A stretch of DNA of 40,358 bases from an uncultured Hungatella sp. (GTDB taxonomy: Bacteria > Bacillota > Clostridia > Lachnospirales > Lachnospiraceae): the NCBI GenBank assembly GCA_949879025.1, contig CATLBO010000018.1, positions 1-40,358 on the forward strand, written 5' to 3'. This document shows positions 12,267 to 29,811 of this stretch, one piece after another (positions within the stretch are counted from its first letter, which is position 1; every line of letters begins with the position of its first letter). Made by a program: the position numbers and the translations under genes. The notes beneath the pieces were generated by a model that was given only the letters and a program-made list of their open reading frames with translations, was not told the origin of the DNA and ran no database searches.

Positions 12267-13064
12267 ATGAAATCAGAATCAGCAAAAAAACGGCTTGCTA
12301 TAGCAGGCTGCGGAAAATTGGGAAACATTTTAACAGATGCCTGGAGGGACGGGCTGCTTCCGGAATATGAGATTGTCGGTGTCCTTGGAAGAAACAAGGA
12401 ACATGCCCGATCCATGGCGAGTAAAGCGGGATGCCCGGCATTTGAGACTATTGAGGAATTGCTGGCTGTAAAGCCAGACTATGTGGCTGAAATGGCTTCA
12501 GTGCAGCTGGTGAAAGACATCGGAGAAAAGGTGTTAAAAAACGGAGCCAGCCTGGTAGTGTTGTCCATCGGCGCCTTTGCCGACGAAGCATTTTATGACC
12601 GGATAAAAGATACGGCCAGAGAGAACGGGACAAAGGTACATATTGCTTCCGGTGCGATCGGAGGCTTCGATGTGCTTCGGACAGTTGCCCTGATGGGACA
12701 GGTAAAAACGGAGATGGTGACCCACAAAGGGCCGAAATCACTTCAAAATACCCCAGTGTTTCGGGAGGAGCTGCTGGAGGATAAGGAGAAGTCGAAGGTA
12801 TTTGACGGGAATACAAAAGAGGCTATTAAGCTTTTGCCCACAAAGGTAAATGTGTCTGTGGCCGCCTCTCTGGCCACGGCGGGGACGGAGGAAACACGGT
12901 TCCGTATTTTCAGTGTGCCGGGGATGGAAGGGGATGACCATAAGATTACTGCCGAAATAGACGGTGTGACGGCTGTAGTGGACATCTATTCCAGAACCAG
13001 CGACATCGCCGCATGGAGCGTGGTAGCGCTTCTGCAGAACCTGGCATCGCCGATTATGTTTTAG
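12267..13064 (+). CDS. Aspartate dehydrogenase-like oxidoreductase (DUF108)
   Basis: A 265-residue NAD(P)-dependent enzyme resembling L-aspartate dehydrogenase (NadX). The Rossmann loop GCGKLG is at residues 14-19, the family block SGAIGGFDVLR lies near 127-137, and the GDDHKI segment near 225 keeps the histidine normally placed in the active site. The family oxidises L-aspartate to iminoaspartate for NAD synthesis or aspartate breakdown. No nadA, nadB or nadC is nearby, so that role is uncertain. It begins 28 bases after jetD with an AAGGAG site and is 15 bases before the next gene. It may therefore be read through from the Wadjet transcript or from an unseen promoter. Confidence 0.8.
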   Translation: MKSESAKKRLAIAGCGKLGNILTDAWRDGLLPEYEIVGVLGRNKEHARSMASKAGCPAFETIEELLAVKPDYVAEMASVQLVKDIGEKVLKNGASLVVLSIGAFADEAFYDRIKDTARENGTKVHIASGAIGGFDVLRTVALMGQVKTEMVTHKGPKSLQNTPVFREELLEDKEKSKVFDGNTKEAIKLLPTKVNVSVAASLATAGTEETRFRIFSVPGMEGDDHKITAEIDGVTAVVDIYSRTSDIAAWSVVALLQNLASPIMF

Positions 13065-13079
13065 GAGGTATGGGAAATA

Positions 13080-13982
13080 ATGAACATGTTTAAAAAATTA
13101 GTGGCCATAGAGCCTGTAAGCTTGATTTTGTCAGCTCAGGAGGAATTGAAGCAGTATGCAGAGGAAGTAATATTGTACGAAGATATCCCGGAACATGAGG
13201 ATGAAATAGTGAGAAGAATCGGGGATGCTGACGGCGTTCTGGTCAGCTACACATCTCAGATTCGAAAGAATGTGCTGGAGCAGTGTCCAAATGTCCGGTA
13301 TGTGGGTATGTGCTGCAGCCTGTATTCGGAAGCCAGCGCCAATGTGGATATTGCCTATGCCAGAGAGCATGGGATTCAGGTTCTGGGCATACGGGATTAC
13401 GGGGACCGCGGTGTGGTGGAGTATGTGCTGTACCAGCTGGTGCGGATTCTTCACGGGTTTGACTTCCCCATGTGGCAGGAGGAGCCTCTGGAACTTACAG
13501 GCCTTCCTGTAGGGATCATCGGCATGGGCGTGTCGGGAGGCATGGTAGCGGATGCGCTGCAGATGATGGGAGCTAAGATATCCTACTACAGCAGAACTAG
13601 AAAGCCGGAGAGAGAGGCAGCAGGCATGGAGTATCTGCCGCTGAATGATTTGCTTGAGGGAAGCCAGGTGGTCATTACCTGTCTGAACAAAAATGTGATT
13701 CTCCTTCATGAGGAACAGTTTCAATGCCTTGGAAATAAAAAAATCCTGATGAATACTTCTATTGGCACGTCTTCTGACAGAGATGCTTTGGCTAAATGGC
13801 TGGAATGCAGGGATAATCTTTACTGCTGCGATACAGAGGCAGCCATTGGGGATGACACTGGGGAGCTGATTCAGAGAGAGAATGTGCTCTGCATGAGGAC
13901 CTCCGTTGGGAGGACGAGACAGGCATTTGAACTTTTGAGTAAGAAGGTATTGGATAATATACGGGCGTATCTGGAGGAGTAG
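13080..13982 (+). CDS. D-2-hydroxyacid dehydrogenase-like protein, atypical active site
   Basis: A 300-residue protein with the NAD-binding loop GIIGMGVSGG near 145-154 and the overall layout of D-isomer-specific 2-hydroxyacid dehydrogenases. The block that is usually NTARG, carrying the catalytic arginine, reads NTSIG at 225-229. The usual TPHIGG histidine block reads RTSVGR near 273-278. Thus two of the three classical catalytic residues seem absent, while the fold and nucleotide site are kept. It may use a different chemistry, bind NAD as a sensor, or be catalytically dead. An AGGAGG site lies upstream; a second ATG two codons in is also possible. Acylphosphatase follows after 16 bases. 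Confidence 0.72.
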   Translation: MNMFKKLVAIEPVSLILSAQEELKQYAEEVILYEDIPEHEDEIVRRIGDADGVLVSYTSQIRKNVLEQCPNVRYVGMCCSLYSEASANVDIAYAREHGIQVLGIRDYGDRGVVEYVLYQLVRILHGFDFPMWQEEPLELTGLPVGIIGMGVSGGMVADALQMMGAKISYYSRTRKPEREAAGMEYLPLNDLLEGSQVVITCLNKNVILLHEEQFQCLGNKKILMNTSIGTSSDRDALAKWLECRDNLYCCDTEAAIGDDTGELIQRENVLCMRTSVGRTRQAFELLSKKVLDNIRAYLEE

Positions 13983-13998: not shown

Positions 13999-14268
13999 AT
14001 GGAGGCAAGAAGGCACATTTTTTTTTCCGGAAGGGTCCAGGGCGTAGGGTTTCGCTACCGCGCCACTTATCTGGCCCAGTCCAGGAAATTGACCGGGTGG
14101 GTGAAAAATCTCTGGGATGACCGGGTAGAGATGGAAGTCCAGGGGGAAGAGACGAATATTGAACGGTTTCTGCAGGATTTGCAGGGGCAGCAGTTTATTT
14201 CCATTGACAATATGGAAATGACAGAGATTCCCTGTGTGAAGGAGTCTAAATTTCGGGTGGTATATTAA
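13999..14268 (+). CDS. Acylphosphatase
   Basis: An 89-residue cytoplasmic enzyme that hydrolyses carboxyl-phosphate bonds such as acetyl-, carbamoyl- or 1,3-bisphosphoglycerate phosphates. The family signature GRVQGVGFRYR holds the phosphate-binding arginine near residue 20, and GWVKNL near 34-39 holds the catalytic asparagine. The length is typical. It is the last gene before the hairpin at 14285 and probably belongs to the transcript of the two preceding dehydrogenase-like genes. Confidence 0.93.
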   Translation: MEARRHIFFSGRVQGVGFRYRATYLAQSRKLTGWVKNLWDDRVEMEVQGEETNIERFLQDLQGQQFISIDNMEMTEIPCVKESKFRVVY

Positions 14269-14284
14269 AAACCTGTTTTGAGAG

Positions 14285-14321
14285 TGCGGCCGCAGTGATG
14301 TCTGAACTCACTGCGGCCGCA
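14285..14321. terminator. GC-rich hairpin between convergent genes
   Basis: A perfect 14-base inverted repeat (14285-14298 and 14308-14321) with a nine-base loop lies between acylphosphatase on the plus strand and the glutaredoxin-like gene on the minus strand. The stem is very stable but lacks a strong T-tract on either side, so it may be a bidirectional or 3'-stabilising element rather than a classic terminator. Confidence 0.6.
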
Positions 14322-14342
14322 TTCCTGCCTGAAAGAATCTCC

Positions 14343-14594
14343 CTATTTAAGCACATCCTTCAGATCCATTGTCTTCGTTCCGTCTTCCAGTATAAAGCAG
14401 GGAATTCCGATTCCGCCGCCTGCTTTCACCTTCTCATACATAGGCTCCTCATCTCGCAGCTTAAGATAAACCTTCAGATCCGGCAGGGAGGCAGACATAT
14501 TCTTAAATTCAATCTCTGTGCCTGCTTCTACCAGTTTGTTCAATGCATAAAGGGTATCTGGGCATAAATGGCTTCCTACTACAGTAACTTTCAT
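14343..14594 (-). CDS. Glutaredoxin-like redox protein
   Basis: An 83-residue thioredoxin-fold protein. The redox site near residue 10 reads CPDT, a single-cysteine version of the CxxC centre, and GIPCFIL near residue 65 has the cis-proline plus a second cysteine beside it. The family reduces disulfides or handles glutathione-like mixed disulfides. I preferred the second of two close ATGs because AGGAG is then nine bases away; the first would begin at 14600. It lies downstream of ridA on the same strand, with 165 bases and a GC hairpin at 14718-14742 between. It could be the last, attenuated gene of the sulfur operon or have its own promoter. Confidence 0.75.
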   Translation of the reverse strand: MKVTVVGSHLCPDTLYALNKLVEAGTEIEFKNMSASLPDLKVYLKLRDEEPMYEKVKAGGGIGIPCFILEDGTKTMDLKDVLK

Positions 14595-14765
14595 AATCAT
14601 AATCTCCTTTTTCTTTTTAATATGTATGGTATCCGTTTATGTAACGGGAATCCCCTATTTGATTTTTCTCGGTTTTTTAAGTTCCAGTGGTTTGCTGTTT
14701 AGCAAATCTGGTCTTACGGCGGGGCGTTTTACTGCCCCGCTGCCTGTTACAGGCATGCGGCATTT

Positions 14766-15137
14766 TTACCGCTTCACTGCCACTGCTTCAATCTCACACA
14801 GAACCCCTTTGGGCAGCTCTCTGACTGCTACGCAGCTTCTGGCTGGCTTGGAAGTAAAGTATTTGGCATATACCTGGTTAAAGTCACCAAAATCGGCCAT
14901 ATCTGATAAAAAGCAGGTGGTTTTAAATACCTGATCCAATCCGGTTCCTGCTGCAGCCAGGATTGCCTCCACGTTCCTGCAGCTTTGTTCCGCCTGTGCA
15001 CAAATCCCCTCAGGCACTTCCCCGGTTTGGGGGTTAACAGGAATCTGCCCCGAAGTAAATACAAACCCATTGACTTCAAATCCCTGAGAGTAGGGGCCGA
15101 TTGCCCCAGGTGCGCTGGTAGTTTCGATTACATTCAT
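14766..15137 (-). CDS. ridA: RidA family enamine/imine deaminase
   Basis: A 123-residue Rid protein with the active-site arginine in KPARSCVAV near residue 102 and the C-terminal CEIEAVA block. RidA trimers hydrolyse reactive 2-aminoacrylate and related imines to keto acids and ammonia. Aminoacrylate is exactly what PLP lyases and cysteine desulfidases release from cysteine, which explains its place in this operon. AAGGAGG precedes the start. An interspersed repeat fills the space between this gene and the symporter gene upstream. Confidence 0.92.
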   Translation of the reverse strand: MNVIETTSAPGAIGPYSQGFEVNGFVFTSGQIPVNPQTGEVPEGICAQAEQSCRNVEAILAAAGTGLDQVFKTTCFLSDMADFGDFNQVYAKYFTSKPARSCVAVRELPKGVLCEIEAVAVKR

Positions 15138-15177
15138 GATAGAATCCTCCTTTAAAATATATTAAAAAGTAAATCTG

Positions 15178-15273
15178 CATGCGCCTGGCAGCGGATGCGC
15201 CACTGCACATGAAAGCTTGGCGGGCACATTTGGCATACCTGAATGCATGCCGCCTATTGGGCGGCTGGATTTT
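15178..15273 (+). repeat. Interspersed ~95-bp structured repeat, copy A
   Basis: This copy aligns along its length with 27498-27593. Shared blocks include CATGCG.CTGG.AGCGGATGCGC at the left end and a core of TTGGCAT, CCTGAA and ATGCCGCCT that can fold into a short hairpin. It lies between the symporter and RidA genes, inside a leftward operon. By eye about 70-75% of bases match the other copy. It contains no credible ORF. Confidence 0.7.
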
Positions 15274-15283
15274 CACAGTATAC

Positions 15284-16534
15284 TTATGCAGCTGCCTGTC
15301 CGCTTTCGATACGCTTTTCCAGCCAGTCTTTCCCTTCAACCAGCCGGGCGATAATCATAGAAGCAATAGTATCTCCGCTGGCATTTAAGCAGGTTGCCGC
15401 CGGATCAACTAAAAACCCGATAGTTGCAATAAGAGGAAATGCCTCAGCTGGAAAACCAAACAGGCTGACAATAAGCATCTCGCCGACCAAACCGCCGCCG
15501 GGAGCGCCTGACAGTACAAATGCACTTAAAATCGCCACTACAATAGACATGGCATAGGTTCCCACGCCTGTATAAGGCATCTGGAACACGCCGTACAGAA
15601 ACGCAATTTTTGTAATAGAGGACAATACAGAGCCGTCCATATGCATGGTTGCACCCATGGGAAGCACAATATTGCTGATATCATCAGGGACGCCGATTTT
15701 CTTACAGGCTTCCATGTTAACCGGCAGCGTTGCAACAGAGCTTTGAGTCGCAAATGCGGTGACTGCAGGATTAAAAATATTTTTAAGCATACGTGAGATA
15801 CCCAGTTTTCCAGCCGCAAAATAACTGTAAAGAGGGAAAAATATAAGCACGTACACTGCGCACATTGGATAATAAACCAGCATGGTACGCCCGTAATCAC
15901 CGATTAACTGAGGGCCGAATTCTCCTACCAGGTTTGCAAAATATGCTCCGAGGCCAATGGGCGCCAATTTCATAATCATATCAACCATCATCATGATAAT
16001 GTCATTTAAGTTATTCAAAAGCTTCCCCGCCCAGCTTTCCTCGCCGCCGCATTTAGCCACTGCAAAGCCAGACATAATGGCAAATACAATAATGGGAAGC
16101 ATATTGCTCCGGCTCATAAGGCCGCTGAAGTCATTGACCGTAAGCGCCCCCACAATCATGTCACTGATGCTGGAGGCTTCTGCCATCTCTGCCGTACCCA
16201 TGGAGATAGCCGTATTTGCCGCAGGAGGCCAGAGATTTACTACAACAAGCACCAGTGCCGCTGCAAAACCTCCGGTAACAATAAAAGTACACACCAGACT
16301 TCCAAGAATCTTTCCAAGCCGTTTCATGTTAACCATATTTCCCACGGCAGTGGTAATGGATACATAGACCATAGGGACGACGATGGTAAACATCAGATTC
16401 AGGAAAATATCCCCAAGAGGTGCCAGTACCTTAGCCCTTTCCCCTAAAATAATCCCCAGAATGGCTCCGGTAAAGATGCCGCCTAACAGCAGCAGCGGAA
16501 ATTTATAGCTGTCCCATATTTTTTTTGCGTTCAT
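15284..16534 (-). CDS. Dicarboxylate/amino acid:cation symporter (DAACS)
   Basis: A 416-residue membrane transporter of the GltP/SstT/TcyP fold, with about eight transmembrane helices and two re-entrant hairpins. The motif usually written NMDGT appears as HMDGS in PMGATMHMDGS near residue 275. The second hairpin signature is GAPGGGLVGEM near 355. It uses sodium or proton gradients to import an amino acid or dicarboxylate. It starts 15 bases after the C-S lyase gene, under the same sigma-54 promoter, so cystine, cysteine or a related thio-amino acid is a reasonable inferred substrate. Confidence 0.88.
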   Translation of the reverse strand: MNAKKIWDSYKFPLLLLGGIFTGAILGIILGERAKVLAPLGDIFLNLMFTIVVPMVYVSITTAVGNMVNMKRLGKILGSLVCTFIVTGGFAAALVLVVVNLWPPAANTAISMGTAEMAEASSISDMIVGALTVNDFSGLMSRSNMLPIIVFAIMSGFAVAKCGGEESWAGKLLNNLNDIIMMMVDMIMKLAPIGLGAYFANLVGEFGPQLIGDYGRTMLVYYPMCAVYVLIFFPLYSYFAAGKLGISRMLKNIFNPAVTAFATQSSVATLPVNMEACKKIGVPDDISNIVLPMGATMHMDGSVLSSITKIAFLYGVFQMPYTGVGTYAMSIVVAILSAFVLSGAPGGGLVGEMLIVSLFGFPAEAFPLIATIGFLVDPAATCLNASGDTIASMIIARLVEGKDWLEKRIESGQAAA

Positions 16535-16549
16535 GGTATACCCCTTTCA

Positions 16550-17722
16550 TCATAGGTTAGTGTCAATGGCTTCCTTTAGTTGTTTCATGGCCTGCCTGAG
16601 GACGCTTCGGGGGCAGGCTGCATTAAGGCGCATATAGCCGGTCAGGCTTCTTCCGAAAGTGCAGCCTTCATTTAACCCCAGCCTGGCCTTTTCAATCATA
16701 AATGTTCTTAAGGCTTCATTATCCATGTTAAGAGCCCGGCAGTCCAGCCACATGAGATAGGTGGCATCCGGTACATTTACCTTGATTTGAGGAATGTTTT
16801 CCTGGCAGAAGGACTTTACGTATTCAAAATTTCCATCCAGATATTCCAGAAGCTGCTCCAGCCATTCCTCGCCTTCATTAAATGCAGCCTCCATGGCAAC
16901 GGAACTGAATGCATTATTTCTGTGAATATCCATGTTCATCCAGAATCTGTCAAACCGAAGCTTGGTTTCCATATTGGGAAATACAGTAGTGGATGCCTGG
17001 ATGCCGGCCAGGTTAAATGTCTTTGTTCCTGAGATACAGCTTATAATGTTTCCTGCAATCTTCTGGGATACCATGGCTGTAGGCACATGCTTCTTTCCAT
17101 GAAAGATCAGGTCGGAATGGATTTCGTCAGAAACAAGAAGAACATGGTTGGCAATGCAGATTTCTGCCATTTTTTTAAGCTGATCCCTGGTCCATACAAT
17201 TCCAAGGGGATTGTGAGGACTGCATAGTAGGAAAATCTTTGCCTCCTTGGCTTTTCTTTCAAAGTCATCAAAATCTATGGTCCAACAGCCGTCTTTTTCT
17301 ACAAGCTGGTTTTCTAGTACTATCCGATCCCAGGCTTCCACCACATCATAAAATTCTGAGTATACGGGAGTCTGAATCATAACCTTGTCTCCTGGATTGC
17401 TGAAAATTTTTACGATGGCAGACAGAGCCGGAACCACGCCTAAAGACCAGCTAACAAGATTCTTGTCAATTTTCCAGCCGTTACGGCGCTCCTGCCAGCT
17501 GCAGATTGCCTCGAAATAGCTGTCAGGGCGGGATGTGTATCCCCATATGCCTTCCTCTGCCTTGGCTTTCATTGCATCAATAATTGGCTGAGCGGTTCTG
17601 AAGTCCATGTCTGCAACCCAAAGGGGGATGACGTCATTGGTCCCGAACTTTTTGATTCTCTCATCATATTTGGCGGCACGGTTGCCGCTGCGGTCAATGA
17701 CCTGATCAAAATCGTATTTCAT
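16550..17722 (-). CDS. MalY/PatB-type PLP C-S lyase/aminotransferase
   Basis: A 390-residue fold-type I PLP enzyme. The Schiff-base lysine is in SGTKTFNLAG near residue 233, the PLP-contacting aspartate is in VSDEIHSDL near 200-208, and SPHNPLG near 165 is the usual Asn-Pro motif. The N-terminal VIPLWVADMDF segment is characteristic of MalY/PatB cystathionine beta-lyases. These split cysteine, cystine or cystathionine to a thiol or sulfide, ammonia and pyruvate by way of aminoacrylate. It is first in the leftward operon, with a strong sigma-54 promoter about 60 bases upstream. Confidence 0.88.
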   Translation of the reverse strand: MKYDFDQVIDRSGNRAAKYDERIKKFGTNDVIPLWVADMDFRTAQPIIDAMKAKAEEGIWGYTSRPDSYFEAICSWQERRNGWKIDKNLVSWSLGVVPALSAIVKIFSNPGDKVMIQTPVYSEFYDVVEAWDRIVLENQLVEKDGCWTIDFDDFERKAKEAKIFLLCSPHNPLGIVWTRDQLKKMAEICIANHVLLVSDEIHSDLIFHGKKHVPTAMVSQKIAGNIISCISGTKTFNLAGIQASTTVFPNMETKLRFDRFWMNMDIHRNNAFSSVAMEAAFNEGEEWLEQLLEYLDGNFEYVKSFCQENIPQIKVNVPDATYLMWLDCRALNMDNEALRTFMIEKARLGLNEGCTFGRSLTGYMRLNAACPRSVLRQAMKQLKEAIDTNL

Positions 17723-17779
17723 GTTTTGGGCTCCTCTCTTTTTGTTTTAGCTATGTTTTGCGGTGATATTGTTATAAAA

Positions 17780-17796
17780 AGCAAGAAATGTGCCAA
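17780..17796 (-). promoter_or_regulatory. Sigma-54 (-24/-12) promoter for the C-S lyase operon
   Basis: Read on the minus strand this is TTGGCACATTTCTTGCT, a near-perfect match to the TTGGCAC-N5-TTGCT consensus with the GG and GC elements at the required ten-base spacing. It lies about 60 bases before the lyase start codon. Confidence 0.85.
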
Positions 17797-17923
17797 TTAT
17801 TTGAAAAGCAGCGGAAAAATACTTTTTTGATATTCTTCCTTAAATAAAAAAGAAAAGGGACAGAAATATTAAGGCGGGAAAGTACGATGAGGCTACAGAA
17901 TCGGGGATACAAAGCATTATATT

Positions 17924-17956
17924 TTAACCAATTAATAATAATTAATTAACCAATTA
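17924..17956. promoter_or_regulatory. Candidate enhancer sites, two TTAACCAATTA copies
   Basis: The 11-mer occurs at 17924-17934 and 17946-17956, 22 bases apart, so on nearly the same face of the helix. The pair lies about 130-175 bases from each of the two divergent sigma-54 promoters, the usual distance for an enhancer-binding protein. Similar copies precede the cysteine desulfidase gene. Confidence 0.45.
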
Positions 17957-18089
17957 TACAGGTAAAAACAAAATTCAATGATCTAAGCGCCATTGTCTGT
18001 GGACAGAAAAAACATACAATTTATATCATTCACCAAAAGGCACAATGATTTAAGGGTGTGGAATGGTATGGAAATAATCAGGCTGTACA

Positions 18090-18106
18090 TTGGCTTATTA
18101 TTTGCT
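18090..18106 (+). promoter_or_regulatory. Sigma-54 (-24/-12) promoter for the reductase-rhodanese gene
   Basis: TTGGCTTATTATTTGCT keeps the GG and GC elements with correct spacing and the TTGCT box, though it departs from the consensus just after TTGGC. It is about 90 bases upstream of the start codon at 18199. Confidence 0.7.
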
Positions 18107-18198
18107 GTATATTATAAACAGTACACTGAGGTGTATACGGCTATTTGATAAATAGCTGGATTCTGCAACTGACAGATACAAAAGGAAAGGAGAATACC

Positions 18199-19905
18199 AT
18201 GGGAAGAAAGATTGTTATTGTAGGCGGAGTGGCAGGAGGCGCTTCTGCGGCTGCTCGGATCAGAAGATTGGATGCAGCTGCCCGGATTATTATGTTTGAG
18301 AGGGGAGAGCATGTTTCGTTTTCCAATTGCTGCCTTCCTTATCATTTAAGTGGTGCTGTTGAAAATAGCGACAGCCTTGTGATGATGAGTCCGGACCGGT
18401 TTGCAAAACAGTATGACATAGAAGCGCGGGTACAAAGCGAAGTGACAGAGATCCGTCTTGAAGAAAAGAAAGTGACAGTGCATGATCTGGTATCAGGTGA
18501 CTGCTATGAAGAGGAATACGACAAACTGATTTTGGCCCCGGGAGCTAATCCGATTATGCCTAAAAGCATAAAAGGAATCCAGCAAAAGCACGTATTTTCC
18601 GTGCGGAATGTAACAGATATTAAGGCTCTGAAACAGTATATTGATGCGAAAGGCGCAAAAAGGGCTGCGGTAGTAGGCGGCGGATTTATTGGCCTGGAGG
18701 TAGCGGAGAACCTTAAAATGGCAGGGCTTTCTGTGGCTCTTATAGAAGGAAGCAGCCAGATTATGGCGCCGTTTGATTATGATATGGTTCAGACTCTCCA
18801 TAAGGAAATGATGGATTGCGGAATAGAGCTTTATTTGTCGTCCGCGCTGACAGAGGTAAAGGAAAACACCATTGTAATAATGCGGCAGAACGGTGAGAAA
18901 ATGGTTGATGCAGATGTTGTTGTCATGTCCATTGGGGTGACTCCGGAGACCGCACTGGCCCAAAAAGCAGGCCTTGCAATAGGGGAGACCGGGGGGATAC
19001 TGGTTAACAAGAATTATCAGACTTCCAATCCTGATATTTACGCCGTTGGAGATGCGATCCAGGGATACAGCCGTTTGCTGCACCGGCCTGGGCGCCTGGC
19101 TTTGGCAGGCCCCGCACAGCGGCAGGCCAGGACGGCAGCGAACCATATTTGCGGCGGACAAGGCAGAAACCAGGGATACATCGGCTCTTCCTGCATCCGG
19201 CTTTTTGGCCGGAATGCGGCTTGTACAGGGCTGAACGAAAAGACGGCGAAAGAAGCAGGGATTCCCTTCGATTTTGCTTATGTAATTGCGCCGGATAAAG
19301 TGGGACTGATGCCAGACAGCAATTATATGAACTTTAAACTGATTTTCGAAGTACCTACAGGGCGCATTCTCGGAGCACAGGCAATTGGAAAAGGGAATGT
19401 AGATAAAAGGATTGACGTAATAGCCGCTATGATAACCATGGGAGGAACATTGGAAGACTTAAAAGAACTGGAACTGTGTTATTCTCCGGTTTTTGGCACT
19501 GCAAAGGATGTGGTAAATCAGGCGGCCCTTGTAGGAATGAACCTGCTTAACGGATGCTACCGCCAGGTTCCGGTGACTGCTGTGCGGCAGCTGGTAGAAT
19601 CAGGAGCATGCATTATAGACGTAAGGGAAGAACATGAATTCCAGGCAGGGCATCTGAAAGGTGCTAAAAATATTCCTTTAAGCCAGCTCCGCCAGAGAAT
19701 GGATGAAATTCCAGTAGACGTGCCAGTGTATCTGCACTGCCGTACAGGACAGCGCAGCTACAATGCAATCTGCTGTCTTCAGGGCCATGGATATAAGAAT
19801 CTGTGGAACATTTCCGGCTCTTTCCTGGGTGTCAGCCTATATGAATATTTTAATGATAAAGTTCAGGACAGAATGCCTGTGGTAACGGAATATAATTTTA
19901 AATAG
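18199..19905 (+). CDS. CoA-disulfide/persulfide reductase with rhodanese domain
   Basis: A 568-residue fusion. Residues 1-445 are a pyridine-nucleotide-disulfide oxidoreductase: an FAD loop GGVAGGASAAAR near 9-20, the single active-site cysteine in SFSNCCLPY at 40-48 (Cys44), an NAD loop VVGGGFIGLE near 175, and DIYAVGDA near 296. Residues about 465-555 are a rhodanese domain with catalytic Cys514 in HCRTGQRS. Such enzymes reduce CoA disulfide, CoA persulfide or polysulfide with NAD(P)H, and the rhodanese part passes sulfane sulfur to the flavin domain. AAAGGAG fixes the ATG at 18199. The sigma-54 promoter and neighbours point to a role in handling sulfur released by cysteine breakdown. Confidence 0.93.
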   Translation: MGRKIVIVGGVAGGASAAARIRRLDAAARIIMFERGEHVSFSNCCLPYHLSGAVENSDSLVMMSPDRFAKQYDIEARVQSEVTEIRLEEKKVTVHDLVSGDCYEEEYDKLILAPGANPIMPKSIKGIQQKHVFSVRNVTDIKALKQYIDAKGAKRAAVVGGGFIGLEVAENLKMAGLSVALIEGSSQIMAPFDYDMVQTLHKEMMDCGIELYLSSALTEVKENTIVIMRQNGEKMVDADVVVMSIGVTPETALAQKAGLAIGETGGILVNKNYQTSNPDIYAVGDAIQGYSRLLHRPGRLALAGPAQRQARTAANHICGGQGRNQGYIGSSCIRLFGRNAACTGLNEKTAKEAGIPFDFAYVIAPDKVGLMPDSNYMNFKLIFEVPTGRILGAQAIGKGNVDKRIDVIAAMITMGGTLEDLKELELCYSPVFGTAKDVVNQAALVGMNLLNGCYRQVPVTAVRQLVESGACIIDVREEHEFQAGHLKGAKNIPLSQLRQRMDEIPVDVPVYLHCRTGQRSYNAICCLQGHGYKNLWNISGSFLGVSLYEYFNDKVQDRMPVVTEYNFK

Positions 19906-19928
19906 GCAGAAATCGTTTTTCATCTGAA

Positions 19929-22007
19929 TCAGGGAATATCTGAATGCCTCTCCCACAGCTTACGGCCTTCCAAAGTCAGCCGGCTGCCGCCTCGCCCCCG
20001 GCTGATTCTGGCAAGGCCTTTTTCTGACATTTCTGTCAGGATATTCCGCACTTCCTGCTGCGATAGAGGGAGGAAACACTCTCTGGCTTTGGCCAGCAGC
20101 TTTTCTCTTCCGACGAAACATCCCTGCTGAGACGCTTCATAAAGCTGCTCCAGGACAAACCAAAAGGCTTCCGTATAGACGCCTCCCTGTTTTTGGATAA
20201 GATTGTTCTTGCCAGGTGATGCCATAACAGGACGAAGGCAAGACTGACTGTGCTTTAATACAGTAGGAGGAAGATCCTCCAAGGCAATGTGCTCATGTCC
20301 AGTGTATATAAAATATTCTACCACATTGCGCAGTTCCCGTATATTGCCTGGCCAGGAATATTCTTTCAGGAATTTGTGTACGGAATCGGTCAGATCAAAT
20401 TGTCCCCCAAGCTCATTTTTAAAATGTTCTATCAGCAGAAACATATCATCATCCCTGCCTGCCAAAGAAGGAATCATAATAGGAAGCGTATTCAGCCGGT
20501 AGTATAAATCCCGGCGGAAGTCTCCTTCTTCCACTTTCTGCTCCAGAGATTCGTTGGTTGCAGCTACAATACGCACATCAATGCTAATAAGGCGGCTGCC
20601 TCCTACCCGCATAATTTCCCGCTCCTGCAGCACTCTTAAAAGTTTTACCTGCAGCAAGGGGCTCATGCCTTCCACTTCATCTAAAAACAGGGTTCCCCTG
20701 TGAGATAATTCCAGAAGACCTGGTCTTCCGCCCTTCTTCGCTCCCGTAAAAGCGCCTTCCTCGTATCCGAAGAGCTCGCTTTCCAGAAGATTCTCAGGAA
20801 AGGCAGCCACATTGATGGCAACAAAAGGTTCCTTTGCCCTTCTGGAAGCCTGATGCAGGGCATGGGCAAACAATTCCTTGCCAGTACCTGTTTCGCCGAT
20901 GAGAAGCACTGGGCTTTCACTTACAGCCATTCGCTTCAGAATCTCTTTGGACTTAATGATTGCCTGGGAATTGCCGATAATATCATGGAAGCCATATTTA
21001 GCATAATGGCCTTTATGTAAAAGCTGTTTTCTCAATTCGCTTTGGCGCATTTCCATGTCATTAAATCTCTGAAGTATGGCAAAAGCCCCAATGCAGGCAT
21101 CCTGCCGCAGCACAGGAACCACTTCTGCGCTGATGTTAACACCATGGATCTTGATTACCTGGGCCTCGGTGCGTTTTTTTTCTTTCATGCATTTGGAAAA
21201 GTCAATATATGGGAATACTTTTTCACATCGTTTTCCCATAATCAGTGAACTGCTTACCTTGGTAATCTCTTCCGCATGATGGCTGCAGGCAAAAATTTCA
21301 CCGCATTCGTTTACTCCGATGACGCCCTCCTCCAAGATCTCCATTAGAATATGGAACTGGCTTTCCAGACGGATAGATTTAGCGAACATTTGGTCAAAGC
21401 TGTAGTTATTGGTAGCTATGGAGCGGAAATATTTCTGGAAAGGCTCCGTCTCCAGCAGATATTCCAATTCCAGACGCAGGGCAATCTCTATCATCATGCC
21501 GGACGTGCAGGGGCGCTGCCCTAAGTTGATCTTTGTTTCTATTTCCTCAGGAACATAACGCATTTCATCAGGTGTTACTGCTATATGGACATCTTTCTCC
21601 AGCACGGCTCCGGGGTAAAATGGGATCAGTTGGATGTGGTTAATTCCAAACTGATTCAGCTGGGTGATGGCCTCCCGAGCCATGGTTTGCGTCATGTTTA
21701 CAAACAGTACTTTGGTTCCCCTTGAAAGTTCTTTCAATTTTCTAAGCTCACTCCAGCGGAAGGATACTTCCACAGCCATAGTTTGACAGTCCATGGGAAT
21801 GTGCCGTGCCACCTCCTCAGCAGAACCGTATGCGTCTGTGGAAACAACAAACAGATCGGCCCGGGGAAGAACGCCCATGGCGGAACCATCCAACACATTA
21901 TATACAGATATATCTGCATATGCTCCAAACAGGCTTTTCACTTCCCTGCCATAGGATTCACCTGCCCTTGGGTCCAGGCTTACAATAGAAATACGCTTTT
22001 TTTTCAT
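19929..22007 (-). CDS. Sigma-54-dependent enhancer-binding regulator of the sulfur module
   Basis: A 692-residue activator. Residues 1-185 are an unrecognised sensory domain, about 215-325 is PAS-like, and about 342-575 is the AAA+ domain with Walker A GETGTGKE (371-378), the sigma-54-contacting GAFTGA loop (418-423), Walker B and the GNIRELRN block. The C-terminus, residues 605-692, looks like a winged helix rather than the usual Fis-type HTH. GGAG six bases before the ATG at 22007 decides the start. It is flanked by operons with sigma-54 promoters and by rpoN, so it very probably activates them. The arrangement resembles the cdsR-cdsB pair described in C. difficile; orthology is not proven. 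Confidence 0.92.
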   Translation of the reverse strand: MKKKRISIVSLDPRAGESYGREVKSLFGAYADISVYNVLDGSAMGVLPRADLFVVSTDAYGSAEEVARHIPMDCQTMAVEVSFRWSELRKLKELSRGTKVLFVNMTQTMAREAITQLNQFGINHIQLIPFYPGAVLEKDVHIAVTPDEMRYVPEEIETKINLGQRPCTSGMMIEIALRLELEYLLETEPFQKYFRSIATNNYSFDQMFAKSIRLESQFHILMEILEEGVIGVNECGEIFACSHHAEEITKVSSSLIMGKRCEKVFPYIDFSKCMKEKKRTEAQVIKIHGVNISAEVVPVLRQDACIGAFAILQRFNDMEMRQSELRKQLLHKGHYAKYGFHDIIGNSQAIIKSKEILKRMAVSESPVLLIGETGTGKELFAHALHQASRRAKEPFVAINVAAFPENLLESELFGYEEGAFTGAKKGGRPGLLELSHRGTLFLDEVEGMSPLLQVKLLRVLQEREIMRVGGSRLISIDVRIVAATNESLEQKVEEGDFRRDLYYRLNTLPIMIPSLAGRDDDMFLLIEHFKNELGGQFDLTDSVHKFLKEYSWPGNIRELRNVVEYFIYTGHEHIALEDLPPTVLKHSQSCLRPVMASPGKNNLIQKQGGVYTEAFWFVLEQLYEASQQGCFVGREKLLAKARECFLPLSQQEVRNILTEMSEKGLARISRGRGGSRLTLEGRKLWERHSDIP

Positions 22008-22020
22008 AGATTTCTCCAAT

Positions 22021-22044
22021 TCAACCATTTATTTTAACCATTTT
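22021..22044. promoter_or_regulatory. Candidate enhancer sites upstream of the desulfidase gene
   Basis: TCAACCATTTA at 22021-22031 and TTAACCATTTT at 22034-22044 are 13 bases apart. They lie about 90-110 bases before the sigma-54 promoter at 22131 and just outside the regulator start. They resemble the pair at 17924-17956, giving a loose consensus TYAACCAWTTW. Their place next to the regulator gene would also allow autoregulation. Confidence 0.45.
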
Positions 22045-22130
22045 GTCACAATTTCACTGAGAATGCAATAGCCTTTACGATTTTGGAAAATAAAAAGAGA
22101 GAAAAGACACATTTCTATAGAGAATTATTT

Positions 22131-22147
22131 TTGGCATGATTTTTGCT
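22131..22147 (+). promoter_or_regulatory. Sigma-54 (-24/-12) promoter for the cysteine desulfidase gene
   Basis: TTGGCATGATTTTTGCT matches the TTGGCAC-N5-TTGCT consensus with a single change in the upstream element and correct spacing. Transcription would begin close to 22160, leaving a leader of about 35 bases before the ATG at 22194. Confidence 0.85.
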
Positions 22148-22193
22148 TTATAAAAAATTAGAAAACTTTACACATAAGAGAGGAGATATTCGT

Positions 22194-23480
22194 ATGATTA
22201 CCAAAACAGAATTGTTAACGCTGCTCCGCCAAGAAGTAGTTCCCGCCCTTGGCTGTACGGAGCCGGTATGTGTGGCTCTTGCCGCTGCTGATGCTTACCA
22301 TGCCATCGGAGGGGACATTGTTTCCATTAAAGTGGAGGTCAACCCTGGAATTTATAAAAACGGCATGAGTGTGGGCATCCCCGGATTTGACCGGGTAGGG
22401 CTTAAGTATGCAGCCGCCTTGGGGGCCTGTCTTGGCAATCCCCAGAAAAGCCTTCAGCTTTTAGAAGACATTAATGAGGAAGTTTCCAAAAAAGCCGTTG
22501 AACTTGCGGAAGCCCACCATGTTATTGTCATGATTAACCATAATGAAACACAGCTTTATGCAAGGGCGGAGATTATCACTACTGCCGGAATCGGGATCAG
22601 CGAAATACGGAATACCCATGCCAATATTATTCTGACCAAGAGAAACCATGAAGTTCTTCTGGAAAAGGAGTATGCAGTTACTTCCAATGACGAAATTCAT
22701 CAGAAGCTTATGGAAATGTCTGTGGCAGAAATCAAAGAGATCGTGGATCAGTGCAGTGAGGATGAACTGGCTTACATGACTGAAGGCGTAGAGATGAACG
22801 GGAAACTGGCAGATTACGGTTTAAAGAATTCGGTAGGAATCGGAATTGCATCTGCGCTTCAGAAACAGCTGGAGTCAGATACCATGGGAAACAATCTGTT
22901 CAGCCGTACTATGGTGCGGGTGGCAAGCAGCGCAGAGGGGCGTATGAGCGGCTGTCCATACACGGTTATGAGCAGCGCAGGCAGCGGAAATCATGGCCTG
23001 ACAGCTGTTCTGCCTGTAGTGGAGATGGCAGAATATGTCCATGCATCTAATGAGCAATTGGTAAAAGCGCTTGCATTTTCCCATGCCCTGAATGTGTACA
23101 TAAAATCTTTTACAGGAAAGCTGTCTGCCACCTGCGGCTGCGGAGTGTCGGCTGCTACTGCCGCTTCTGCAGCTATGGTCTGGCTTCTTGGCGGAAATGA
23201 CGTCCAGATTGGAAATGCCATTATTAACATGAGCGGAAACCTTACAGGGATGGTTTGCGACGGCGGAAAAATCGGCTGCGCTTTAAAACTTGCAACAGCG
23301 GCCAATGCGGCTATGATGTCTGCTTACCTTGCCATATCAGACGTGGTCCTTCAGGGGACAGATGGTATCTGCGGATTTACGCCAGAAGAATCTATCCGCA
23401 ATATGGGAAAGGTAAGCAGCCCGGGAATGCTGCAGACCGATCACACAATTTTGGACATTATGATGGAAAAAGACTGCTGA
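22194..23480 (+). CDS. cdsB: L-cysteine desulfidase (UPF0597/CyuA family)
   Basis: A 428-residue iron-sulfur enzyme of the serine dehydratase alpha/UPF0597 group (CdsB in C. difficile, CyuA/YhaM in E. coli). It converts L-cysteine to pyruvate, ammonia and hydrogen sulfide. The N-terminal block [16 protein letters not shown] near 18-33 carries one conserved cysteine. Further conserved cysteines lie in SGCPY near 265, in [17 protein letters not shown] near 320 and in [12 protein letters not shown] near 357-368, as expected for a 4Fe-4S site. GAGGAG before the ATG at 22194 fixes the start and places it after the sigma-54 promoter. A strong terminator follows at once, so the gene is monocistronic. 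Confidence 0.93.
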
Positions 23481-23481
23481 T

Positions 23482-23518
23482 AAAAAGCGGCTTCCGATAC
23501 TGACGGAAGCCGCTTTTT
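23482..23518. terminator. Bidirectional intrinsic terminator
   Basis: A perfect 15-base inverted repeat (23482-23496 and 23504-23518), with A-tract on one side and T-tract on the other, lies between the convergent cysteine desulfidase and rpoN genes. It should stop transcription in both directions. Confidence 0.92.
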
Positions 23519-23530
23519 ATCAGAATATCA

Positions 23531-24877
23531 TTACAGAAGCAATGCCCTCTGCCTGGAGTCCGGTATATTCATCTGAATTCGGTATTTTGCCACAGCTCTT
23601 CTGGAGACAGAGATGCCTTGGCCTGCCAGCTTTTCTGCCAGCTTTTGGTCGCTGAGAGGTTTTTTACCTTCCGCAGCAATGGCGGCACGAATTCGCTCTT
23701 TAATATTTTCCGGAGAAATACCTTCATGCCCTCCATCTTTTGAAATAGCTGGTGTAAACAGGGCTTTAAGGGGTACAGTCTTTTTATATTGTACATATTT
23801 TCCCTTAATGGCACGGCTTACAGTAGATGCATGGAGCCCCAGATCCTCTGCAATATCTTCCAGCCCCATAGGAGCCAGTGGACCTTTTAGCTCAAAATAA
23901 TTCTCCTGCCGTTTCAAGATGGCGTCTATAATACGGACAATGGTTTTTCTCCTTTGTTCTACACAGCTGATAACAAATCTTGCGCGCTCCAGCCGTTCTT
24001 TAAAATATGCTGTCAGTTCCGGGTCAGTGGACTGCTCCATCATGCCCATATAATAGTCGCTGTATTTATAATCTCCCATCCACTGGTCATTGATTTCCAC
24101 AATCCATCTTCCCCCTGGCCGGGATACCAGAATATCCGGCACTACGTAGGAGGCTTCGGCCCGCTGGATATCCATAATGGGACGGGGATTCAGGCTTCCG
24201 ATTAAGTGGATGTATTCTTTTACCTTGATGGTGGATATCCCAAGGCTTCGGGATATGGCACCAATCTGCCCGCTTACCAGATGGGCCAGATGTTCCCTTA
24301 AAAGAAGGAACAGAGTTTCGTCCTCAATGGCTCGTTCTTCCAATTGCCTGATAAGGCATTCAGCCAGATTAGGGGAGAAGATACCTACAGGCTCCAGTTC
24401 CCGCAGCACGGCAAGGCACTGAGAAAGCTCTTCCTTTCCATACCCGGATGTTTCAGAAATCTCCTCAATATCGTGGGTGAAAAAACCCTTTTCATCCAGA
24501 CAGTCTATAAGATACCCCATAATCTTCCACTGGCGTTTGGAGTAGTCGTTCCAGTTAAGCTGCCCAAGGAGATTTTCTTTTAAAGAACTTCCCTTTTTGG
24601 CAGACAATTCTCTTCGATAGGGTTCGTCCCCGTCAGGATTACCCGGATGCTGATCCGCATAGGCGGTTTCTGATTCACTGTCAGAAAATTTTTCAATGCT
24701 TGTCATGATTTCGTTTTCTTTGTGTTCCGCATTTTCCAACATTGGATTTTCTAGATATTCATTTACCATAAAGTCTTCCAGTTCCTGGTTGGTAAACGCC
24801 AGAATATTTAAGGCCTGAACCTGATTTGGAGACAGGGATTGTTTTTGCTCGGCTGCTATGTAACTGTTTAAATCCAT
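23531..24877 (-). CDS. rpoN: RNA polymerase sigma-54 factor RpoN (SigL)
   Basis: A 448-residue sigma-54. Residues 1-45 are the glutamine/leucine-rich activator-interacting region I. An acidic region II follows, then the core-binding domain, an HTH near LHASTVSRAIKGKY, and the RpoN box SRRAVAKYR near 425-433, close to ARRTVAKYR. It recognises the three -24/-12 promoters seen upstream. AGGAG before the ATG at 24877 was preferred to an earlier frame start at 24979. That rpoN lies beside its activator and target genes suggests cysteine catabolism is a main use of sigma-54 in this organism. Confidence 0.95.
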   Translation of the reverse strand: MDLNSYIAAEQKQSLSPNQVQALNILAFTNQELEDFMVNEYLENPMLENAEHKENEIMTSIEKFSDSESETAYADQHPGNPDGDEPYRRELSAKKGSSLKENLLGQLNWNDYSKRQWKIMGYLIDCLDEKGFFTHDIEEISETSGYGKEELSQCLAVLRELEPVGIFSPNLAECLIRQLEERAIEDETLFLLLREHLAHLVSGQIGAISRSLGISTIKVKEYIHLIGSLNPRPIMDIQRAEASYVVPDILVSRPGGRWIVEINDQWMGDYKYSDYYMGMMEQSTDPELTAYFKERLERARFVISCVEQRRKTIVRIIDAILKRQENYFELKGPLAPMGLEDIAEDLGLHASTVSRAIKGKYVQYKKTVPLKALFTPAISKDGGHEGISPENIKERIRAAIAAEGKKPLSDQKLAEKLAGQGISVSRRAVAKYRIQMNIPDSRQRALLL

Positions 24878-29261: not shown

Positions 29262-29699
29262 ATGTGGAGGAAAAAGGTTATGGCTGCCGCAGCGGCAGGC
29301 ATGGTGATGGCTGTAATGGCAGCGTCTCCGGCTCTGGCACATGGACATGGCTGCCGTCGGCGGGTAACTGCCGCCGCTTCCGATACGGCTAGTTTAGCCT
29401 GCACCATCGAAGGGTGCAGTGAAACAGGGTACCATACCCATGACAGTCACGGCTACTGGGGATGCTATCCGGTCTGTACGGCAGAAGGGTGCAGCGAAAC
29501 AGGCCATCATTCCCATGATGGTTATGACTGCTGGGGATATTATCCGGTTTGCGCTGTAGAAGGGTGCAGCGAAACAGGCCATCATGTTCATGACGAACAC
29601 AATTACTGTGGTTACAGCCATCGCAGCGGATACTGTGATAATTCTTGCCAAACGCCTTCAGGCAATGCAGGATACGGCGGGCATCACGGCTGTTATTGA
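29262..29699 (+). CDS. Secreted His/Cys-rich repeat protein
   Basis: A 145-residue exported protein of no named family known to me. Residues 1-26 form a signal peptide ending ALA before HGHG. Three tandem 25-residue repeats follow at residues 47-71, 72-96 and 97-121, each built on C..EGCSETG.H.HD and an aromatic-rich end. A Cys/His/Gly-rich tail ends HHGCY. The spacing of Cys and His suggests binding of zinc or another transition metal outside the cell. The ATG at 29262 has AGGAGG about nine bases upstream. It has its own promoter and a terminator downstream, so it is probably a single-gene unit beside the MoxR operon. Confidence 0.75.
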   Translation: MWRKKVMAAAAAGMVMAVMAASPALAHGHGCRRRVTAAASDTASLACTIEGCSETGYHTHDSHGYWGCYPVCTAEGCSETGHHSHDGYDCWGYYPVCAVEGCSETGHHVHDEHNYCGYSHRSGYCDNSCQTPSGNAGYGGHHGCY

Positions 29700-29768
29700 C
29701 AGCCAGGGCCGCCTGATGCAAGAGACTGGGGCAAAAACACCGGGATACAGCGGCTTAGACAGCATGTA

Positions 29769-29811
29769 AGAAACGGGTGCACCGGCTTTTTAGCTGGTTC
29801 ACCCGTTTCTT
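29769..29811 (+). terminator. Intrinsic terminator after the His/Cys-rich gene
   Basis: A hairpin with outer AAGAAACGGGTG/CACCCGTTTCTT arms and an inner ACCGGC/GCTGGT stem around TTTTTA, ending in TTCTTGTC. It separates this gene from the next promoter. Confidence 0.7.

Follow-up and report, generated by a model that had tools for sequence, protein, structure and literature searches.

A candidate near-private sigma-54 regulon for cysteine import and fermentation in an uncultured Hungatella sp.

Sigma-54 is usually regarded as a regulator of many targets. What does it serve when an rpoN gene and a sigma-54 activator lie within 10 kb of a few sulfur-related genes? This question is raised by a 40,358-nucleotide stretch of DNA from an uncultured Hungatella sp. 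(GenBank assembly GCA_949879025.1, contig CATLBO010000018.1, positions 1 to 40,358), here called the window, which is contig C18 of a 3.79 Mb draft genome with 255 contigs and 82.8% completeness. Between 14766 and 24877 the window encodes RidA, a symporter and PatB (minus strand), a CoA-disulfide reductase (CoADR) fused to a rhodanese (plus), an activator (minus), the cysteine desulfidase CdsB (plus) and RpoN (minus). We consider it quite likely that this module is a near-private sigma-54 regulon, in which three promoters, one activator and a linked RpoN would serve the import and fermentation of cysteine or cystine. The parts of this proposal supported by sequence are the gene families, the conservation of the promoters and of upstream repeats, and the finding of just one RpoN and one GAFTGA activator in the window genome. 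The features are:

14766..15137, minus: RidA family enamine/imine deaminase (TIGR00004, 161 bits, cut-off 106.25)
15284..16534, minus: SDF-family amino-acid/dicarboxylate symporter (PF00375, 1e-98)
16550..17722, minus: PatB-family pyridoxal phosphate-dependent C-S lyase (TIGR04350, 466.7 bits, cut-off 340; PDB 6qp3 PatB, 2.1e-104)
17780..17796, minus: predicted sigma-54 -24/-12 promoter of patB-symporter-ridA (exact consensus; same-place sites in relatives)
17922..17956, minus: likely enhancer (upstream activating sequence, UAS) made of TAATTGGTTAAAA and TAATTGGTTAATT as direct repeats at a 22-bp spacing (17.7 and 15.8 bits with the cross-validated matrix)
18090..18106, plus: probable sigma-54 promoter of CoADR-rhodanese (one mismatch; strict sites in orthologous loci)
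18199..19905, plus: CoADR/rhodanese fusion of the persulfide-reductase type (PF07992, PF02852, PF00581)
19929..22007, minus: sigma-54 activator (open reading frame (ORF) to 22028, start inferred; PF00158, 2.9e-67; GAFTGA; structure models)
22019..22044, minus: likely enhancer (UAS) before cdsB made of TAAATGGTTGAAT and AAAATGGTTAAAA as direct repeats at a 13-bp spacing (14.9 and 17.3 bits with the cross-validated matrix)
22131..22147, plus: predicted sigma-54 promoter of cdsB (exact consensus; same-place sites in relatives)
22194..23480, plus: CyuA/CdsB-type [4Fe-4S] L-cysteine desulfidase (PDB 9fsl/9fyi; aligned catalytic Cys/Glu and cluster cysteines)
23531..24877, minus: RpoN, the only one found in the window genome (TIGR02395, 362.7 bits, cut-off 277; tree)
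14272..23456: block from ridA to cdsB that is missing from the related genome G010 and outlines the unit (blastn collinearity on both sides)

The initial annotation had placed three -24/-12 promoters before a C-S lyase/symporter/RidA operon, a CoADR-rhodanese and a cysteine desulfidase, with the activator and rpoN in the same 10 kb. Profile and PDB matches bear out these gene identities, and the GAFTGA activator and rpoN do share that interval. All three promoter sites were located with the consensus TTGGCAY-N5-TTGCW. Two match it exactly, TTGGCACATTTCTTGCT before patB and TTGGCATGATTTTTGCT before cdsB, while the third, TTGGCTTATTATTTGCT before CoADR-rhodanese, has a single mismatch (GGCT for GGCA). 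Counted from the -24 end, the start codon lies 74 bases away for patB (17722), 63 for cdsB (22194) and 109 for CoADR-rhodanese (18199). The motif was not used on its own because it is not above chance when two mismatches are allowed (53 matches in the window, 48 expected). With up to one mismatch, the whole genome holds 89 sites, almost every one within an ORF, and the reversed pattern gives 26.

Related loci were taken from a scan of named genomes, from which the best 80 of 110 confirmed activator relatives (52-82% activator identity) were kept; several genomes contribute two loci, so that 80 loci are not 80 genomes. Schaedlerella arabinosiphila (82%) stands first among the named relatives listed, other Lachnospiraceae come next, and the module recurs among gut Lachnospiraceae and Oscillospiraceae. 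For 73 patB and 50 cdsB genes of these loci (genes below 60% identity or missing the first six residues were excluded), sites within 330 bp upstream were sought with a regular expression slightly looser than the consensus. A -24/-12 site stands at the same place upstream of 66 of the 73 patB genes and 46 of the 50 cdsB genes, compared with 0.07% and 0.2% of letter-shuffled regions, respectively, and a strict site was found within 330 bp upstream of the CoADR-rhodanese orthologs in 5 of 7 distinct loci. Judged by position and conservation, the three predicted promoters are more than chance. The features of a sigma-54 operon under an enhancer-binding protein (EBP) are present: the GG and GC of the -24/-12 elements are conserved at the correct spacing, and the genome has a GAFTGA activator and RpoN.

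Two words, TGGTTAAA and TGGTCAAA, are prominent upstream of the -24 elements, and TGGTTAAA as a single word occurs in 59 of 116 upstream regions (2.4 expected). This set includes the three regions of the window; left out were L075 and L104, which are duplicates, and any region in which no promoter site was present. Where a locus contributes both a patB and a CoADR region, the two overlap, and four CoADR regions were positioned with a frameshifted query protein. A matrix resolved the signal into tandem TAAYTGGTYAAA boxes, spaced mostly by 9, 13 or 18 bp: of the 116 regions, 113 have one box or more and 104 have two or more, compared with 47 and 3 of 580 shuffles, the training set being also the test set. 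When the window and its closest relatives were excluded from training, the matrix found at least two repeats in 12 of 14 held-out regions, the exceptions being L076 cdsB and L077 CoADR; among 243 control segments it found two or more in 1 and at least one in 40. Of 165 pairs of adjacent repeats in the spacing classes listed, 139 point the same way. A palindromic UAS was rejected: the best 5-base form, CAAAA-N13-TTTTG, occurs in only 14 of the 116 regions and the commonest listed 4-base form, AAAA-N13-TTTT, in 29 (7.2 expected), against 59 for the single word TGGTTAAA.

Single repeat sites are not in excess in the 40-kb window (23, compared with 13-23 in shuffles). Close pairs number three against 0-1 in shuffles: 17922-17956, 22019-22044 and a weak pair at 14871/14890 inside ridA. 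With the divergent patB and CoADR promoters on either side of it, the first pair could act on both. An exact repeat-pair search of the genome returned three matches, one of them the patB/CoADR pair, and the reversed control returned four. Conserved at enhancer distance, the TAAYTGGTYAAA repeats are likely enhancers and putative binding sites.

The protein expected to bind them has an alpha/beta N-domain, a PAS domain, an AAA+ domain with GAFTGA and a winged helix, as assigned by the PF00158 profile and structure models. Its translation probably begins at 22007 because the second repeat pair overlaps the first possible start (22028), and a start equivalent to 22007 is found in many orthologs. 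A profile search gave no Fis match at E<1, and in the models the C-terminus is a winged helix in place of Fis. Nor did the N-domain match PrpR_N (PF06506) at E<1, and profile comparison gave a probability of 0.2% at an effective sequence number (Neff) of 2.5. The PAS domain carries a cysteine, Cys312, in 43 of 43 aligned orthologs (42 from the 80 loci, chosen for spread, plus that of the window) and in none of 20 other EBPs, of which one is gapped at position 312 and several align poorly beyond the AAA+ domain. A wider family of winged-helix sigma-54 activators sharing the N-domain was seen at loci L286-L304, some of them beside M20/M19 peptidases, PatB-like lyases or carriers. A PrpR_N protein (L265/L033, G000:C110) has a degenerate AAA+ domain without GAFTGA and is probably sigma-54-independent; several other EBP-like proteins examined likewise have no GAFTGA.

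What would such a regulon do? CdsB is of the CyuA type and not a serine dehydratase (24.7 bits against a cut-off of 243), and it matches the L-cysteine desulfidase PDB 9fsl at 1.4e-32. CyuA of Methanococcus maripaludis has catalytic Cys23 and Glu25 and cluster ligands Cys287, Cys329 and Cys336, and PMC12647591 describes the catalytic Cys/Glu as setting cysteine desulfidases apart from serine dehydratases. C21 (51 of 51 aligned CdsB proteins) and E23 of the window CdsB align with this catalytic pair, C314, C355 and C362 (48 of 51 each) with the three cluster cysteines, and C316 with the nonconserved ligand Cys289. Because the catalytic and cluster residues are kept, CdsB likely converts cysteine to pyruvate, ammonia and H2S. 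The CoADR-rhodanese is a pyridine-nucleotide disulfide oxidoreductase fused to a rhodanese in the persulfide-reductase layout; it matches PDB 3icr (1.7e-141) and the CoA-persulfide reductase 8a56 (2.3e-121), and it falls below the cut-off of the CoA-disulfide reductase equivalog TIGR03385 (413 against 579).

From these families, which also suggest the order of PatB, CoADR-rhodanese and RidA, we infer the following scheme. RpoN-polymerase would wait at the three -24/-12 promoters while the single activator binds the two pairs of TAAYTGGTYAAA boxes through its C-terminal winged helix. Its PAS/N-terminal part would sense a cysteine-related signal, perhaps via the invariant Cys312, whereupon all three promoters would open and cysteine would induce the module. 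The symporter may import cysteine or cystine, and PatB would cleave cystine or S-conjugates, cystine yielding the persulfide thiocysteine, which the CoADR-rhodanese would reduce to thiol and H2S. With CdsB adding the predicted desulfidation of cysteine, RidA would clear 2-aminoacrylate/imine from both lyases, and the unit as a whole would produce sulfide.

Several observations weigh against a near-private cysteine regulon. The mismatch in the CoADR-rhodanese promoter falls on a normally conserved base, and 26 of the 165 repeat pairs are oppositely oriented. As to the substrate, no NCBIfam equivalog scores over its cut-off for the SDF symporter, and the best one, SstT (serine/threonine), lies below it. 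PatB enzymes also cleave cystathionine and S-conjugates, and the family acts on many C-S bonds. PatB stands downstream of the activator in 73 of 76 loci, and a close, divergent cdsB is found in 48 of the 67 for which at least 1.7 kb of upstream flank is present. This recurrence of the gene order across gut Clostridia speaks for the regulon, but 19 of the 67 have no such cdsB. The SstT match, the breadth of PatB and the steadier presence of PatB than of cdsB favour the alternative that survives best, namely a sigma-54-controlled unit in which CdsB is a side branch and the main substrate is cystathionine, S-methylcysteine, a cysteine conjugate or serine/threonine. We regard it as unlikely, given the cysteine-desulfidase Cys/Glu kept in CdsB (as characterised in PMC12647591) and given that RidA and a persulfide-reductase-type enzyme suit a flow of cysteine or cystine.

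Gene order around the activator varies in other ways. A CoADR-rhodanese ortholog adjoins it in 7 of the 80 loci (67-81% identity), and a further CoADR-like gene (37-39%) lies 3 to 5 kb away in 8 other loci; the idea that the gene had been replaced in the window species was rejected, the orthologs being 67-81% identical. Loci L106, L113 and L115 have a divergent second PatB-SDF pair (36-38% identity) across the other side of the activator, and cdsB was not found in these three loci.

How private is the cysteine regulon proposed here? One RpoN was found in the window genome, and among its seven PF00158 matches a GAFTGA-type motif occurs only in the module activator. The examination covered 88 of the 89 genome sites. 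Twelve of the 88 fall outside any ORF of at least 100 codons, and among these at least two upstream repeats occur only at the three sites of the module. Two weak upstream repeats accompany one of the sites within ORFs, and the 89th site (window 26455) falls in a 454-codon ORF. A genome scan for further RpoN sites, which the initial annotation had put forward as a check, thus gave no other intergenic site with a repeat pair among the 88. A single activator was counted in 4 of 35 genomes (G000, G016, G089 and G097; threshold E up to 1e-30; 34 of the 35 are carriers of the module activator), and in each of the four the lone RpoN lies within about 5 kb of it. Nevertheless, 30 of the 35 have 2 to 39 activators, and privacy should therefore be read as a feature of the window lineage. 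Moreover, rpoN lies within 10 kb in only 9 of the 80 loci, many flanks ending at contig ends (seven of the nine RpoNs are 62-84% and two 32-37% identical), and the incompleteness of the draft may hide another rpoN, activator or target.

The corresponding alternative is a regulon that is not private, with RpoN as a general factor and its other targets or activators in the 17% of the genome that the draft does not cover. Incompleteness and the activator counts speak for it, and we think it unlikely, as three genomes other than that of the window (G016 being 65% complete) combine one activator and one nearby rpoN, and three genomes in which the module activator is absent have a truncated rpoN of the module type. 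A single sigL was reported in each of 57 genomes in PMC6615313. In our tree, module-type RpoNs form a supported clade apart from other RpoNs (11 rows, 100/99), and G080 and G003 carry both types; long-branch and composition warnings apply outside the module clade, and G006 is absent from the tree.

Natural losses bear on the same question. G010, with flanks 89-93% identical, lacks window positions 14272-23456, a single 9.2 kb block with all six genes from ridA to cdsB, and its rpoN is short of about 55 codons, the RpoN box among them. That the sigma-54 unit is self-contained and linked to RidA and a persulfide-reductase-type enzyme, as initially annotated, is supported by the one rpoN, the one GAFTGA activator, the outcome of the genome scan and the absence of this block. 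G003 and G006 also have rpoN genes without their 3' ends, of the module type in G003 and 65% identical in G006, and no activator ortholog was found in either genome. RpoN scores over the cut-off in 9 of 26 genomes of the genus, which shows several states: the full module, a damaged module, rpoN beside a broken cdsB, and a clipped rpoN without the block. Exceptions break a strict rule that would tie an intact module-type rpoN to the module. In G007 the rpoN next to a broken cdsB is intact although no activator was found at E 1e-30; in G015 the rpoN is intact, cdsB matches in part and the activator match starts at residue 145; in G081, rpoN and activator are on separate contigs; and in G022 the activator is present and no rpoN was found, its contig stopping before cdsB. 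G085 gave no RpoN domain match, yet its locus L079 ends in an rpoN fragment.

Beyond the missing block, the last gene retained on that flank in G010 is a small ORF (13999-14268, plus), which we take to be acylphosphatase-like. Aspartate dehydrogenase-like and D-2-hydroxyacid dehydrogenase genes (12267-13982) precede the module and are placed outside it because they are present in G010. At 29409-29811, blastn between the window and G010 gives off-diagonal matches (about 110 bp, 80% identity) and one of 44 bp in inverted orientation, which suggest local repeats.

We further propose, at even confidence, that this RpoN clade is the private switch of one sulfur-catabolic locus, travelling and decaying with one winged-helix activator, whose repeat enhancers and Cys312 would make it a thiol or persulfide sensor. 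An entire alternative sigma system apparently kept for three promoters would be a minimal natural system for the retention and loss of sigma-54. Together, the repeat motif and this family of winged-helix activators suggest clostridial regulons beyond the Fis-type reconstruction of PMC6615313. The module would predict which gut commensals raise H2S from cysteine on demand, and Cys312 offers a single-residue handle on the sensor. In the literature searched, with subscription papers mostly outside it, we found no description of the winged-helix activator with its repeats, of the patB/CoADR/RidA linkage across gut Clostridia or of a module-linked RpoN clade.

Cereibacter/Rhodobacter sphaeroides has dedicated RpoN paralogs with their own activators for flagella or nitrogen fixation; the module likewise pairs a separate sigma-54 copy with an activator, here for a cysteine module in Clostridia. 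In Escherichia coli, cyuR-cyuPA combines a dedicated importer and CyuA for anaerobic cysteine fermentation under a cysteine-responsive activator (PMC9040844). The module shares the pairing of a putative importer with a CyuA-type enzyme, whereas cyuPA is under CyuR/Crp with CyuP as importer, and no PatB, RidA or persulfide reductase is named in that source. The XcyR regulon (malY-pepT) of Clostridiales, including Flavonifractor and Lachnoclostridium, also has a sigma-54 activator ahead of a MalY/PatB-type gene and a UAS motif called distinct, although the operon as listed in PMC6615313 has a peptidase and no desulfidase, symporter or RidA. Some paralogs of the module activator adjoin M20/M19 peptidases, and XcyR may be a member of its EBP family. 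A cysteine desulfidase under sigma-54 is already known from CdsR-CdsB of Clostridioides difficile, in which a sigma-54 promoter and an adjacent PAS-AAA activator drive a cysteine-induced desulfidase gene (PMC5767170), and the comparison with it in the initial annotation holds for the job and for the sigma-54 promoter before a CyuA-type desulfidase beside the activator gene, but not for the activator, which comes from a different, winged-helix EBP family. That the system is a plain ortholog of CdsR-CdsB is very improbable despite the shared target gene type and sigma factor: according to PMC5767170, CdsR is a 591-residue PAS-AAA-Fis protein with a putative inverted-repeat UAS, whereas the module has an activator with an additional N-domain and a predicted winged helix, mostly direct repeats, a larger gene set and a linked rpoN.

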